Source of the DNA: Pseudofulvimonas gallinarii | GTDB taxonomy: Bacteria > Pseudomonadota > Gammaproteobacteria > Xanthomonadales > UBA2363 | DNA: 64,000 bases | Direction of reading: 5' to 3' | Assembly (NCBI RefSeq): GCF_004343305.1 | Contig: NZ_SMAF01000004.1 | Coordinates: 1 to 64,000, forward strand | In this document: positions 51,186-60,901 of the stretch, one piece after another | How positions within the stretch are numbered: position 1 is the stretch's first letter | Layout: every line of letters starts with the position of its first letter | Made by a program: the position numbers and the translations under genes | The notes under the pieces: generated by a model | Seen by the model: the letters and a program-made list of their open reading frames with translations, nothing else | Database searches by the model: none | Told to the model about the DNA's origin: nothing

Positions 51186-53525
51186 ATGGCGATGATGACC
51201 GGCTCGGACGACGAGCGCACGGTCCTGCTTGCATCCGGCGTTGTCGAAGGCGGTGACGCCGGCGACGGCGCCAGCGCGGGCAGCCTCATTGGTGCCTACC
51301 GCCTGGAAAGACTGATCGGCGAAGGGGGCATGGGCCAGGTCTGGCTGGCCGAGCAGCGCGAGCCGATCCAGCGCAAGGTGGCGCTCAAGCTGATCCGCAG
51401 CCAGCTCGCCGGCAGCCTGGCCGAAGCGTATTTCGAGATCGAACGCCAGGCACTGGCGCGCATGGACCACCCGGCCATCGCCAAGGTCCTCGACGCCGGC
51501 CGCACCAGCGAGGGGTTCCCGTGGTTCGCCATGGAATACGTCGACGGCCAGCCGCTGGACGAATGGTGCAGCCACCACGCGCCGACACAGCGTGCGCGCA
51601 TCGAACTGATCATCGCGCTGGCCTTCGGCGTCCAGCACGCGCACCAGCGCGGCATCATCCACCGCGACCTGAAGCCCAGCAACGTGCTGGTCTCGCTCAT
51701 CGACGGCCGCCCGCAGCCACGACTGATCGATTTCGGCATCGCCACCGCGGTGGACAACCGGCAATCCAGCAATGCCAGGTCCAGCTACGAGCGCGTCGGC
51801 AGCGGTCTCTACATGAGCCCGGAACAGTATGCCGCGGACTCGTCGCTGGACACCCGCAGCGACGTCTATTCACTGGGCATGGTGCTGCTGGTGACGCTGC
51901 TGGCGGGCGAGGAATCGGACATCCTCAAGGGCCTGGATCCGCACACCCGCCAGCCACATGCACGCATCGACGCCTCGCTGCGCGCGCCCGGGCGCGAGCC
52001 GGCGCTGGAGCGCCTGCCGCGCGAGCTGCGCCATATCCTCGCCAGGGCCACGCATCCTGACCGCGAAGCACGCTACGACTCCGCGACGGCGTTCGCCGAC
52101 GACCTGCAGCGTTATCTGGATGGCGATGCCGTGCTGGCCGTTCCACCCAGCCGGATGTACCGGCTGCGCAAGTTCGTGCAGCGGCGACGGCGGCTGCTGG
52201 CCGCGACAGGACTGGTCGCCCTGGCCCTGGTCGTCGGCCTGGTGGTCGCGGTGTGGGGCTTCGTCGAGGCCGAGCGCCAGGCCCGGAAGAGCAAGGCGAC
52301 CTCGGAATTCTTCGCGACGGTCCTCTCCGGCATCGACCCCGAACTCGCCGCCGATCTGGACAAGACGCTGATGCGCAAGGTCCTCGACGAGGCCGCGCGG
52401 CGCGCCGCCGCGGGGCTGGGCGACCAGGCCGATGCCCTGGCGGAAATCGAGAACGTGATCGCCGGCAGCTACATGGCCCTGGGCGAATACGTGACCGCGC
52501 TGGAACACTCGCGCCGCGCCTATGACCTGTCCACGGTCCTGCACGGCGAGAATGACCCGCGCACCCTGAACATGACGCGCCAGCTCGGTCGCCTGATGGT
52601 GGACACCGGCGACGTTGCCGACGGCGTCCGGTTCCTGCGCGAAGCCGTGGCGCGAGCGCGTGAAGTCGGGGGTGGAAACGACCGCACCACGCTGATGACG
52701 ATGCAGGCGCTGGGCTGGGCGCTGCGCGAGGACCAGGAACGCGAGGAAGCGCTGGCCGTCCTGAGGCAGGCCGGGCAGGGCCTGATGGCGCTGCTCGGGC
52801 CCGACAACGACGACACCATCAACGCCCGTTTCATGGAGGCCATCCTGCTCGCCGACCTGGACCGCCACGAGCAGGCCATTCCGCTGCTCACCGAGCAGAT
52901 CGACCGCCTGTCGGCCCTGAACTCGCCCGACCACGCCGGCGTGTTGAACATGCGCAACAGCCTGGCAGTGTTCCATCTGCAGAAGCGACGCTTCGCCGAG
53001 GCCGAAGTGATCCTCAAGGACCTCGTCCCGGCCATGGAGCGCGTCTTCGGCCCGGACAACACCAACACCGTGATGGCTGCGGCCAACCTGGGTGGCGCCC
53101 TGCGCCAGCAGGGCAAGGTGGAGGAATCCGGCCCGCACTACCTGCGGGCGCTGGAGTCCAACCTGGCGCGCTTCGGCCCGCTGCACACGCGCACGGTCAT
53201 GGCCCAGCACAACTACGCCAACTACCTGCTCGATGCCGGCCGCGCCGCTGAAGCCTTCGAGTTGCAGGACACGGCCCTGCAGGCCGCGGGTGGGTCGCTG
53301 GGCGAAAAACACCCGGTATACGCGGGCGCCATGCGCGGCAAGGGCATGGCCGCCATGCACCTGGGTCGGCTGCAGCAAGCCGAAGAACTGCTGCTGCAGG
53401 CCCTGGCCCTCCAGGAATCGATGTGGGCGCCCGGCAACAGCCAGATCATCCAGACCCGCGAAGCACTGGTGAAGCTGTACGAGAAGATGGGCCGGCCGGA
53501 AGCGGCCGCGCGCTATCGCGACTGA
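51186..53525 (+). CDS. Transmembrane Ser/Thr protein kinase with C-terminal TPR region
   Basis: The 779-residue protein has an N-terminal PknB-like kinase. The Gly loop is GEGGMGQVW and the Lys motif is VALKLI. The catalytic D161 is in IIHRDLKPSN, DFG is in LIDFGIA, and SPEQY follows. One membrane helix (about 338-360, LLAATGLVALALVVGLVVAV) leads to about 400 residues of TPR-like repeats outside the cell membrane (LRRAYDL, HGENDPRTL, KHPVYAGAMRGKG). This is a one-pass receptor kinase. GGGAG lies 7 bases before the ATG at 51186. Its 3' end overlaps the convergent acetyltransferase gene by 13 bases. Confidence 0.92.
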   Translation: MAMMTGSDDERTVLLASGVVEGGDAGDGASAGSLIGAYRLERLIGEGGMGQVWLAEQREPIQRKVALKLIRSQLAGSLAEAYFEIERQALARMDHPAIAKVLDAGRTSEGFPWFAMEYVDGQPLDEWCSHHAPTQRARIELIIALAFGVQHAHQRGIIHRDLKPSNVLVSLIDGRPQPRLIDFGIATAVDNRQSSNARSSYERVGSGLYMSPEQYAADSSLDTRSDVYSLGMVLLVTLLAGEESDILKGLDPHTRQPHARIDASLRAPGREPALERLPRELRHILARATHPDREARYDSATAFADDLQRYLDGDAVLAVPPSRMYRLRKFVQRRRRLLAATGLVALALVVGLVVAVWGFVEAERQARKSKATSEFFATVLSGIDPELAADLDKTLMRKVLDEAARRAAAGLGDQADALAEIENVIAGSYMALGEYVTALEHSRRAYDLSTVLHGENDPRTLNMTRQLGRLMVDTGDVADGVRFLREAVARAREVGGGNDRTTLMTMQALGWALREDQEREEALAVLRQAGQGLMALLGPDNDDTINARFMEAILLADLDRHEQAIPLLTEQIDRLSALNSPDHAGVLNMRNSLAVFHLQKRRFAEAEVILKDLVPAMERVFGPDNTNTVMAAANLGGALRQQGKVEESGPHYLRALESNLARFGPLHTRTVMAQHNYANYLLDAGRAAEAFELQDTALQAAGGSLGEKHPVYAGAMRGKGMAAMHLGRLQQAEELLLQALALQESMWAPGNSQIIQTREALVKLYEKMGRPEAAARYRD

Positions 53526-57192: not shown

Positions 57193-59919
57193 TCACGGCG
57201 CCGATGCCGTCGCGTCCGGCACGCGCAAGACGGTTTCGCGCAGGCGCCGCAGGCGCGGCGCCAGCTGTTCGCCGTCGGTTTCAAGCAGCGGTCGCAGGTG
57301 CCGGCGACGGACGTCGTCGGCATCGGCGTCGCGACCCTGGCCGCGATAGAGCTCATACAGCGCCACCGCGAGCGCGTAACGTTCGTCGCCGGCCTCCACC
57401 GACTGCGCCGAGGCGGCATCCAGCAGCTCGCGCAGGCGCCGGATCGCGTCATCCGGACGGCCGATGTCCACCATCGCCCTGGCCGTCTGGATCGCCACAT
57501 CGATCGTGTCCTCGGCCCACGGTCCCTGCGTCTGGACAAGACTCGCGTGCATCTCGCGGGTCAGCGACAGCATCTGCTCATGCCGGCCCATGCGCTTGAG
57601 CAGGTCGGCCAGGCTGCGGCCGACCCGGTAGGTGTCCAGGCTGCCGGGACCGAGGATGCGTCGCCGCATGGTGTACACGTCGCTGTAGATGGCCAGGGCC
57701 TGGTCATGGCGGTCGAGGCGGACCAGCGCCCGAGCCAGGCTGGCGCGGCTGCGCAGCGTATGTGGATGTTCCGGACCGAGCACGCGTGCCCGGCCTTCGG
57801 CGGCTTCCTCCAGCGCGGCCATGGCCTCGACCGGATCACCCGCCTCCATCATCGACATGCCCATGTTGTTGAGGATCATCAGCGTCAGCGGATGGTCGGC
57901 GCCGAGATGCTGGCGGTTCAGCGCGTAGGCTTCGCGCTCCAGTTCCAGGGCCGCCGCCACGTCGCCGGTATCGGCCAGCAGCGCGGCGTAGTTCACCAGC
58001 ACGCCGACCAGCTGCTGCCAGTTGCCATCCTGGCCGCGCTGCACGGACAGGACCTGTTCGAACTGCGGCCGCGCCTGGTCGGAGGCCCCATCAAGGTGCA
58101 GCGACAGCGCGTACTGCTGACGCGCGCGGGCCACCTCGGGGTGGTCGGCCGGATGGATCCGCAGCGCGGCATCCAGCGCCTTCTCGTACCACTGGCGCGC
58201 CTTGCCGTATTCGATCTTGGAGCGGGCGACCTGGGCACGGACCATGGTCGCGGCGATGTGTCGGGAACTGTCTAGTGGCAGCCGTTCGACGGTTGCGACG
58301 GCCTCCGATGCCATGGCCTCGGCGGCATCGAACTGCCCGGAGCGCTCCAGGGAATTGGCCAGCGCCACCTGCGCGTCGACCACGGACTCGAGGTCCGGCT
58401 GCGGCAGCGCCACGCGCTGTTCCAGCACCGACTGCAAGGCCGCGACGGCCTCGTCGTACTGGCCGATCGCGTGATAGACCTCGCCCACCGACTGCAGCAG
58501 GTCGGCGGCCAGCGCCGGTTGCGTTTCGAAGCGCTGGCCGATGATCGACTCGGCGCGCTTGAGCACCGATTCCACCAGGATGGCTCGTGCCAGGCTGGGG
58601 CCGTCGAGAATGCCCGGCAGCTGCTCGACCTGCAGCACGGTGTCCCTTTCGCTGCGGCGCGACAGCTGGTCGCGCACATGGCCGACGAGTCGTCGACCCA
58701 TGTCCATGACGTCGATGTCGCTGAGCATGGCCTGCTGGAAGGCGACGACCTGTTCCAGTTCATGCTGGCGCGCCTCGGCGACGCCGCGCTGGATGCGCGC
58801 CTGGTTGAAGGCGTGCAGGCTGAGCACCAGGCCGCCGACCAGCGTGAGCAGGACCGCCGCGCCGGAAGCCAGCCAGAGCCGGTGCCGGCGCGCGAATCGA
58901 CGCAGCAGGTAACCCGGCGTTGCCGGCATCGCCTGCAACGGCAGGTGGGCCAGATAGCGGCGCAGCTCGTCGGCCAGCGCGATGGCGCTCGGATAGCGGT
59001 CGTTGCGATCGTGCGCCATCGCGGTCAGCACGACGCGGTCCAGTTCGCGCAGGCGGCCACGCCGCGGCGAGGCCGCGCCGGTGGGCAGGCGGCGGCTGCG
59101 CAGGCGCTGCGAAGGTGCCGTCAACGGGCCGGAACGCGTCGATGAAGCGGTTCGCCCGCTCTGGCTGGCGATGCCAGGGCGGTCACCGACGATCAGTTCG
59201 TAAAGCACCACGCCCAGTGCATAGACATCGCTGCGCGTGTCGATGCTGGCCAGTCGCCCTTCCAGCTGCTCCGGACTCATGTACTCCGGCGTGCCGGCCA
59301 TGTCGACCGGGCCTTCCACCGCGGCGTCGGCCAGCCCGGCGCGTGCCGCCGCGGTGGCGATGCCGAAATCGATGATCTTCGGCAGCCACTCGCCATCGAC
59401 GCGGGTGACCAGGATGTTGCCGGGCTTGAGGTCGCGGTGCACGACACCTTTCTGGTGCGCGTGCTGGATGGCATCGCAGACGCGCGCGAGCAGGGCCAGG
59501 CGCTGGTCCAGCGACAGGTCGCGCGCCACCTCGGTGATCGGGCTGCCCTCGATGAATTCCATCGCGAACCAGGGCACGCCGTCTTCGGTCGTGCCGGCGT
59601 CGAAGATCTGCGCGATGGCCGGGTGCTGCATCTGCGCCAGGGTCTGGCGCTCGATCTCGAAGTAGGCGCGCTGGCGCGTGCTCAGGCGGCCGCGCAGCAG
59701 CTTCAGCGCGACGGTGCGACGGACCGGCTGCAGCTGTTCGGCGCGGTAGATGGCGCCCATGCCGCCGCTGCCGATGCGGGCGACGACGCGGTAGTGGCCG
59801 ACCAGGGTGCCCGGCGCCAGCACGCCCGCTTCCGGCGCATCGACGCCTTCATCTGTGCGTGTTTCGAGCCGTCGCGTCGCGTCGGCATCGTCGGCATCCG
59901 TTTCTCCGGTCGGCAGCAT
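57193..59919 (-). CDS. Transmembrane Ser/Thr protein kinase with long C-terminal TPR region
   Basis: The 908-residue protein has a PknB-like kinase. The Gly loop is GSGGMGAIY and the Lys motif is VALKLL. The catalytic D163 is in VVHRDLKPGN, DFG is in IIDFGIA, and TPEYMSPEQ forms the activation segment end. A membrane helix at about 347-370 leads to about 530 residues of TPR-like repeats (YDEAVAALQSVLEQRV, KARQWYEKALDAALRIHP, HPHTLRSRASLARAL). The ATG at 59919 has GGAGG 4 bases upstream; one nine codons earlier does not. It is divergent from the FHA-GGDEF gene by 88 bases, a likely partner. Confidence 0.92.
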   Translation of the reverse strand: MLPTGETDADDADATRRLETRTDEGVDAPEAGVLAPGTLVGHYRVVARIGSGGMGAIYRAEQLQPVRRTVALKLLRGRLSTRQRAYFEIERQTLAQMQHPAIAQIFDAGTTEDGVPWFAMEFIEGSPITEVARDLSLDQRLALLARVCDAIQHAHQKGVVHRDLKPGNILVTRVDGEWLPKIIDFGIATAAARAGLADAAVEGPVDMAGTPEYMSPEQLEGRLASIDTRSDVYALGVVLYELIVGDRPGIASQSGRTASSTRSGPLTAPSQRLRSRRLPTGAASPRRGRLRELDRVVLTAMAHDRNDRYPSAIALADELRRYLAHLPLQAMPATPGYLLRRFARRHRLWLASGAAVLLTLVGGLVLSLHAFNQARIQRGVAEARQHELEQVVAFQQAMLSDIDVMDMGRRLVGHVRDQLSRRSERDTVLQVEQLPGILDGPSLARAILVESVLKRAESIIGQRFETQPALAADLLQSVGEVYHAIGQYDEAVAALQSVLEQRVALPQPDLESVVDAQVALANSLERSGQFDAAEAMASEAVATVERLPLDSSRHIAATMVRAQVARSKIEYGKARQWYEKALDAALRIHPADHPEVARARQQYALSLHLDGASDQARPQFEQVLSVQRGQDGNWQQLVGVLVNYAALLADTGDVAAALELEREAYALNRQHLGADHPLTLMILNNMGMSMMEAGDPVEAMAALEEAAEGRARVLGPEHPHTLRSRASLARALVRLDRHDQALAIYSDVYTMRRRILGPGSLDTYRVGRSLADLLKRMGRHEQMLSLTREMHASLVQTQGPWAEDTIDVAIQTARAMVDIGRPDDAIRRLRELLDAASAQSVEAGDERYALAVALYELYRGQGRDADADDVRRRHLRPLLETDGEQLAPRLRRLRETVLRVPDATASAP

Positions 59920-60007
59920 GGTCCCTCCACACCCTGGACCAGGCATGGTAGCCCAGCCTCCAATGGGTGAGGCGCTGCGCTATGCTTCCGCCAGCCAGAG
60001 GGTGGCC

Positions 60008-60901
60008 ATGAACCGACGAAGCGACGAAGCGAGCACCACGCGCAGGACCATGATCAGTCCCGGGCCGGACCAGCCCGAGCAGGGGACCATGTGCCTGGTG
60101 GTGATCCATGGCGAAGGCCTGGGCAAGCGCATCGACGTGCCCGAACAGCCGATCGTGATCGGACGCTCGCACGACGCCGACCTGCACATCCCCCACGTCA
60201 GCGTGTCGCGGCAGCATTGCCAGGTCTGGCGGGAAGGCAACGCCTGCCACGTCCGCGACCTGGGCGCGACCAACCGTACGCGCATCAACGACCTGCCGGT
60301 CGAACACGGCACGCTCAGCGACGGCGACCACCTCACCATCGGCGAGAGCATCCTCAAGTTCATCGGCGAAGGCAGCGTTGAGGCGCGCTACCACGAAGAG
60401 GTTTACCAGGTCGCCACCCACGATGCCCTGACCGGCCTGTGCAACCGCCGCCACTTCATCGAGATCGTCGACAAGGAAATCTCACGCTCGCTTCGCCATG
60501 AACGACCGCTGGCGATGTGCATCGTCGATGTCGACCTGTTCAAGCCGATCAACGACACCTACGGCCACATCGCCGGCGACGGCGTGCTGCGGCAGATCGG
60601 CGAGATCATGCGCAACCACGTGCGCGGCGACGACATCGCCGCCCGCATCGGTGGCGAGGAATTCGCGGTGCTGCTGCCCGAGGCCGGCATCGAGGCCGCC
60701 GGCACCTTCGCCGAGCGCCTGCGGCAGGCGGTGGCGGAGTCCAGTTTCACCCTCGGCGACCAGCCGCACAAACTCACGGTGAGTATCGGCGTGGCCATCC
60801 TGGGACCCGGCCGCGAGGAGCGCAGCAGCCTGATGGCTGCGGCGGACTCGGCGCTGTATCGGGCCAAGGAAGGCGGCCGCAACCAGGTCTGCACGGCCTG
60901 A
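60008..60901 (+). CDS. FHA-domain diguanylate cyclase (GGDEF)
   Basis: The 297-residue cytoplasmic protein has an N-terminal FHA domain with the phosphothreonine-binding G52-R53-S54, HVSVSRQHC and NRTRIND. A GGDEF domain makes cyclic di-GMP: the active site is GGEEF (215-219) with DVDLFKPINDTYGH upstream. RGDD at 206-209, five residues before GGEEF, is the inhibitory RxxD site. A flexible N-terminus rich in Ser/Thr precedes the FHA domain. I chose ATG 60008 for its GAGGG 5 bases upstream. It is divergent from a Ser/Thr kinase gene. Confidence 0.93.
   Translation: MNRRSDEASTTRRTMISPGPDQPEQGTMCLVVIHGEGLGKRIDVPEQPIVIGRSHDADLHIPHVSVSRQHCQVWREGNACHVRDLGATNRTRINDLPVEHGTLSDGDHLTIGESILKFIGEGSVEARYHEEVYQVATHDALTGLCNRRHFIEIVDKEISRSLRHERPLAMCIVDVDLFKPINDTYGHIAGDGVLRQIGEIMRNHVRGDDIAARIGGEEFAVLLPEAGIEAAGTFAERLRQAVAESSFTLGDQPHKLTVSIGVAILGPGREERSSLMAAADSALYRAKEGGRNQVCTA

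Follow-up and report, generated by a model that had tools for sequence, protein, structure and literature searches.

Near the end of a 64,000-nucleotide stretch of DNA from Pseudofulvimonas gallinarii (hereafter the window), a Ser/Thr protein kinase gene and a gene for an FHA-domain diguanylate cyclase lie back to back, and this arrangement raises the question of whether the kinase controls the cyclase. A sequence-only reading of the locus had proposed, as the simplest case, that the kinase senses an external signal through its TPR region, phosphorylates itself or a partner, and recruits or activates the cyclase. Our comparative analysis suggests that this long-kept pair probably forms a pathway, and that earlier studies have dealt with just its cyclase half, in Bdellovibrio DgcB.

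The two divergent genes and their products

The features of the pair, together with a second kinase gene of the window, are as follows.

51195..53525, plus strand: K2, a second TPR Ser/Thr kinase, unpaired (Pfam, kinase tree)
57193..59919, minus strand: Ser/Thr protein kinase gene, 908 aa (ORF calls, Pfam), catalytic motifs all intact
57271..58530, minus strand: kinase TPR region, approximately residues 464-883 (Pfam TPR_12/TPR_10), predicted periplasmic from inferred topology
58810..58878, minus strand: single predicted transmembrane helix, approximately residues 348-370 (hydropathy peak 2.16, 19-residue window)
59167..59793, minus strand: kinase catalytic domain (PF00069 match, Pfam)
59875..59877, minus strand: Thr15 codon, within the D-A-T-R-R-L motif of the kinase N-tail; putative autophosphorylation or FHA docking site
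59946, minus strand: possible alternative upstream in-frame ATG of the kinase, whose ORF spans 57193-59946
59920..60007, no strand: divergent intergenic region of 88 bases, from the kinase start M at 59919 to the cyclase ATG at 60008
60008..60901, plus strand: FHA-GGDEF diguanylate cyclase gene, 297 aa (ORF, Pfam); closest solved structure 6HBZ (DgcB)
60035..60049, plus strand: conserved T10-T11-R12-R13-T14 motif in the cyclase tail, a possible self-ligand for the FHA domain
60092..60364, plus strand: FHA domain, approximately residues 29-119, with pThr pocket R53, S67, R68, H70, T88 and N89 (Pfam, alignment, model)
60413..60886, plus strand: GGDEF catalytic domain (Pfam)
60623-60634, plus strand: I-site RGDD (RxxD), residue 206, five residues upstream of GGEEF
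60650-60664, plus strand: active-site GGEEF, residue 215 (sequence)

The kinase gives a Pkinase match in Pfam over residues 43-250 (2e-35) and carries VALK (70), HRDLKPGN (161), DFG (184) and GTPEYMSPEQ (209); with this domain and the VAxK, HRD and DFG motifs, it belongs to the Hanks-type bacterial Ser/Thr kinases. Assignment to the PASTA-type PknB/Stk1 kinases was rejected, as NF033483 (NCBIfam) scored 210.6 bits against a cut-off of 450 and TPRs are found in place of PASTA domains. The transmembrane helix separates the kinase domain from the TPRs and, because basic residues lie on the kinase side of the helix, the usual topology rule, if it applies, would make the TPRs periplasmic. Such a topology fits sensing by the TPRs, a role that is itself hypothetical.

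The cyclase consists of an N-terminal tail, an FHA domain (PF00498, 6.7e-16) and a GGDEF domain (PF00990, 2.3e-44), and in its architecture, its size (about 300 aa), the lack of a transmembrane segment and the possession of both GG(D/E)EF and RxxD it corresponds to the DgcB-type cyclases; the I-site is missing from many distant homologues. Within the FHA pocket, R53, S67, R68 and N89 show no variation among 54 homologues, and H70 and T88 reach at least 90% conservation. An AlphaFold2 model of the cyclase shows residues 1-24 as disordered (pLDDT <50) and the tail as undocked, with an uncertain domain orientation (pTM 0.63).

Among solved structures, 6HBZ, that of Bdellovibrio DgcB, was the best match by sequence (1.4e-45, P0003 residues 53-311), and full-length DgcB ranked first and second in a fold search with the predicted cyclase model. 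R53, S67, R68, H70, T88 and N89 align with R61, S75, R76, H78, T96 and N97 of DgcB, the numbering of the DgcB pocket being that of PMC6733907. Thus the details given in the sequence-only reading hold: the gap between 59919 (minus) and 60008 (plus) is exactly 88 bases, GGEEF and RxxD are both intact, and all six phosphothreonine-binding residues are kept.

Conservation of the pair in the order

A survey of whether the pair is conserved had been set beforehand as a test of the sequence-only reading, and the pair passed it. We sampled 398 genomes of the order, with genomes and loci designated by codes and positions taken from coordinates and from fetched loci with 6 kb flanks; matches were accepted at E<=1e-50 for the cyclase and, against the first 465 residues of the kinase, at E<=1e-75. 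A contig scan gave only one relative, an unclassified UBA2363 genome. The cyclase was matched in 107 genomes and the kinase in 101, and the cyclase occurred together with the kinase group in 92 of the 398 against 27 expected (Fisher p 7e-63, uncorrected for shared ancestry). In the window's family and one related family (f1 and f2), 31 of the 35 genomes with a cyclase at least 56% identical contained the divergent adjacent pair (28/32 in f2, 3/3 in f1). The pair was also found in all six assessable genomes of genus g54 in a third family (f12), where contig ends interrupt two further genomes, and in a single genome of a fourth family (f3), which brings the total across the order to 38. Because the divergent arrangement recurs in these 38 genomes, including ones that encode just 3-4 kinases, we regard the pairing as exceeding chance; in one genome, G342, the cyclase of the pair is the single FHA protein.

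Four f2 genomes possess the cyclase without an adjacent kinase. EamA lies directly upstream of the cyclase in G159 and G293, no kinase being found there at E<=1e-75, while G236 has a different neighbour at the cyclase and G308 a second FHA-GGDEF gene in tandem. Most genomes of genera g12 and g23 (f12) and of families f9 and f11 likewise lack the divergent pair; at a few loci (L059, L060, L077, L199 and L200), the cyclase is accompanied by a kinase that lies on the same strand or at a greater distance. Outside the order, FHA-GGDEF relatives of full length occur in two sampled genomes of the same phylum, and the flanks available there gave no kinase match. Tandem duplications were observed at L063, L202 and L195, comprising the two FHA-GGDEF genes of G308 and two kinases beside the cyclase in G169 and G333; in G169, the kinase nearer to the cyclase has lost its Thr motif.

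In f1 and f2, conservation extends to the whole block EamA-kinase-cyclase-ispG, and much of the pair count therefore represents one inherited arrangement. We rejected the linkage as a pure proof of function, EamA and ispG being equally conserved neighbours. The pair is nevertheless intact at four loci (L047, L052, L053 and L061) whose 6 kb flanks yielded neither EamA nor ispG. Furthermore, the 33 paired kinases of f1, f2 and f3 constitute one clade (99% SH-aLRT), to which those of g54, as members of another subgroup, do not belong. The linkage thus exceeds inherited gene order, and, with the g54 kinases outside the main paired clade, it probably arose more than once. K2, the second kinase of the window, lies 7.5 kb from the pair and is not adjacent to the cyclase; its orthologue is also near the pair in G002. 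K2 falls in the sister group of the paired clade, and in the kinase tree its subgroup is linked to FHA-GGDEF genes, divergently in f12 and on the same strand in f9 (L059, L060).

Threonine motifs in both N-terminal tails

Two elements that the sequence-only reading overlooked are the conserved threonines of the cyclase tail and a threonine motif at the N-terminus of the kinase. In the 34 cyclases with an adjacent kinase, T11 is invariant, and T14 (33/34), T10 (31/34) and R13 (29/34) are nearly so; position 12 is Q or R, positions 15 and 16 are hydrophobic, and S17 (30/34), G19 and P20 (31/34 each) follow. T11 and T14 are thus kept, as the motif T-T-[Q/R]-R-T, inside a tail that is otherwise variable and disordered in the model. 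A conserved tail threonine is a feature shared with the DgcB-type cyclases. The DgcB context, with hydrophobic residues at +2 and +3 and Glu at -2, is not reproduced here: T14 is followed by a mostly hydrophobic +2 and, in 30/34, by Ser at +3, with Gln/Arg at -2, and T11 has Thr at +3. Since the residues around the threonines differ, we file the window cyclase as a relative or variant of DgcB and not as its orthologue. The threonines also persist in cyclases without an adjacent kinase (T11 in 36/44, T14 in 33/44), so that another kinase can be the writer. As a further observation, FHA residue 92, which follows the T-N-x-T loop, is an Arg in 30/34 cyclases with an adjacent kinase and mostly Tyr or Phe in those without; this difference may bear on the choice of ligand.

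The N-tails of the paired kinases are short and contain D/E-x-x-T-x-x-L, as in DPDRTELLATR, LAPTESLATR and DATRRLETR. The motif acidic-x-T-x-x-[LIVM] was found in 34 of 36 paired kinases versus 7 of 66 others (from six genomes, searched over the first 32 residues); these counts are a description and not a test, because the pattern was defined after viewing the sequences, which are related and share it as a clade trait. We rejected the motif as specific to the pair, a similar one being present in the unpaired K2 and a few others. FHA domains usually prefer a hydrophobic residue at the +3 position of the phosphothreonine, and the kinase N-tail Thr has Leu at this position. In its T-Q-R-T sequence, the cyclase tail may resemble the Rad53 ligand of yeast Dun1, which is doubly phosphorylated.

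The FHA domain of DgcB (Bd0742 of Bdellovibrio bacteriovorus; PDB 6HBZ/6HC0/6HC1) binds its own N-terminal tail at pThr14, and a disulphide that locks this tail into the FHA cleft yields a strongly active enzyme; occupancy of the domain, and not its removal, activates the cyclase (PMC6733907). Like the window cyclase, DgcB has a tail of about 30 residues, an FHA domain with the same pThr pocket residues, a conserved tail Thr and a GGEEF with an RxxD I-site. In contrast, the two are only 32-34% identical in the structure alignment, the DgcB tail reads LEKTSIV with Val at +3 where TTQRT-hydrophobic-hydrophobic-S here lacks a hydrophobic +3, and the window cyclase gene is paired with a kinase, whereas the work showing that a pThr tail switches on the DgcB cyclase left the kinase unnamed (PMC6733907). 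A kinase, TPR and GGDEF parts also occur in one signalling protein of Clostridium thermocellum (PMC1262709), although this is a single fused protein for which an FHA domain is not reported. A known system that combines a kinase with a tail-FHA-GGDEF cyclase, likened here by description, is one polypeptide, whereas the window has two divergent genes.

Mycobacterial PknB/GarA and corynebacterial PknG/OdhI similarly comprise an FHA protein with an N-terminal Thr-Thr tail that is phosphorylated by a Ser/Thr kinase. Kinase docking occurs in both systems. Unlike in the window pair, their output is the control of metabolic enzymes and not a cyclase, and their kinases do not have TPRs of the window type. 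The phosphorylated tail of GarA/OdhI is bound by the protein's own FHA domain (PMC6733907).

A candidate relay and its alternatives

We slightly favour a model in which the pair is a phosphothreonine-to-cyclic-di-GMP relay. The membrane kinase, whose TPRs are probably periplasmic, would autophosphorylate, and the FHA domain of the cyclase would dock, probably as the initial contact, on the N-terminal pThr of the acidic-x-T-x-x-L motif. The kinase would then phosphorylate the T-T-[Q/R]-R-T tail of the cyclase, and binding of this tail by the cyclase's own FHA domain would rearrange the dimer into an active state, as in Bdellovibrio DgcB. The active cyclase would make cyclic-di-GMP, with product inhibition at the RxxD site limiting the output. 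The sequences themselves show the components of this relay and their conservation; we infer all phosphorylation, binding and activation steps, the direction of regulation and the role of the kinase as writer from the precedents of DgcB and GarA/OdhI. It is likely that the cyclase's own N-terminal threonines are among the FHA ligands, as in DgcB, and the kinase N-terminal Thr motif could be a docking site. More tentatively, and with somewhat less than even confidence, we propose that a two-gene pathway is conserved in the order, in which the FHA domain would dock first on the conserved N-terminal pThr of the partner kinase and afterwards on the cyclase's own T-x-R-T tail, which may carry two phosphates. 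The pathway put forward in the sequence-only reading is supported in part: the conserved pair, the single clade formed by the partner kinases of three families and the retained DgcB-like switch residues speak for it, and the cyclase tail, likely to be among the FHA ligands, has to be added.

The main misfit of a cis-acting tail is that T14, with Ser at +3, and T11, with Thr at +3, differ from the Val of DgcB; because the kinase Thr has Leu at +3 and the tail lacks a hydrophobic residue there, kinase docking is kept both within the relay and as a separate explanation. In the latter, which is the simplest form of the model in the sequence-only reading, the FHA domain would bind the autophosphorylated kinase in trans, at the N-tail Thr or the activation loop, and the cyclase would merely be localised or clustered at the membrane, its tail not being a regulatory ligand. 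The kinase T-x-x-L suits the FHA +3 preference better than the cyclase tail does, and FHA-kinase gene pairs with other outputs occur in the same genus. We nevertheless consider recruitment alone unlikely, since conservation of the tail motif reaches beyond that of the pairing and since DgcB, the nearest relative that has been characterised, relies on its own tail (PMC6733907).

The synteny might instead have been inherited without partnership, in which case the cyclase, a DgcB-type enzyme, could be switched on by one or another of several kinases while its neighbour acts on other substrates. The conserved EamA-kinase-cyclase-ispG block, the G159 and G293 loci, where EamA and the cyclase remain but no kinase separates them, and the 30 kinases of G000 would agree with this idea. 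It becomes rather improbable given that the pair persists in different contexts, that f12 and f9 show linkage between sister-group kinases and FHA-GGDEF genes, and that some genomes have just 3-4 kinases or, as in G342, no FHA protein other than the cyclase of the pair. Least plausible, and to our minds very improbable, is that phosphorylation or FHA occupancy turns the cyclase off, in the manner of the GarA/OdhI tail that blocks the protein's own FHA interactions. The tail-FHA layout does resemble that of GarA/OdhI, and P0003 residues 20-136, a span that takes in the tail, match the OdhI model with a score below the model cut-off; however, residues 53-311 align with DgcB, in which occupancy is activating (PMC6733907).

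Taken singly, FHA-GGDEF cyclases, TPR kinases and pairs of a kinase with an FHA protein are already known. In a limited search of the open-access literature, we found no report of a named kinase whose gene is conservedly paired with that of a DgcB-type cyclase, and no papers on Lysobacter with diguanylate cyclase and FHA or on a kinase phosphorylating a diguanylate cyclase. The pair nominates a candidate kinase for DgcB-type cyclases; if the relay is correct, this would be, within the open-access literature searched, the first such cyclase with a named kinase, and it would join Ser/Thr kinases and cyclic-di-GMP, which are usually studied apart. The FHA docking motifs would then be testable with peptides, and the conserved neighbouring kinase and the culturable members of the group make the whole chain testable in one organism.

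Other kinase-FHA loci were also observed. Genome G000 contains another divergent kinase-FHA pair (L004/L155, contig C32), in which the partner, as judged by eye, seems to combine an FHA domain, a sigma54-type AAA+ domain and a helix-turn-helix at its C-terminus. More FHA genes lie beside kinases at L002 (G000 contig C18) and at L171-L174 (G002), one of the proteins having two FHA domains, and the kinase L171, beside an FHA gene, carries QPTERLER in its N-tail. G000 and G002, with genomes of about 3.5-3.9 Mb, encode 30 and 34 Ser/Thr kinases, respectively, versus 3-10 in four sampled f2 genomes, and many of these G000 and G002 kinases have, instead of a short Thr tail, an N-terminal stretch of about 80 residues, ahead of the kinase domain, that appears helix-like by eye.
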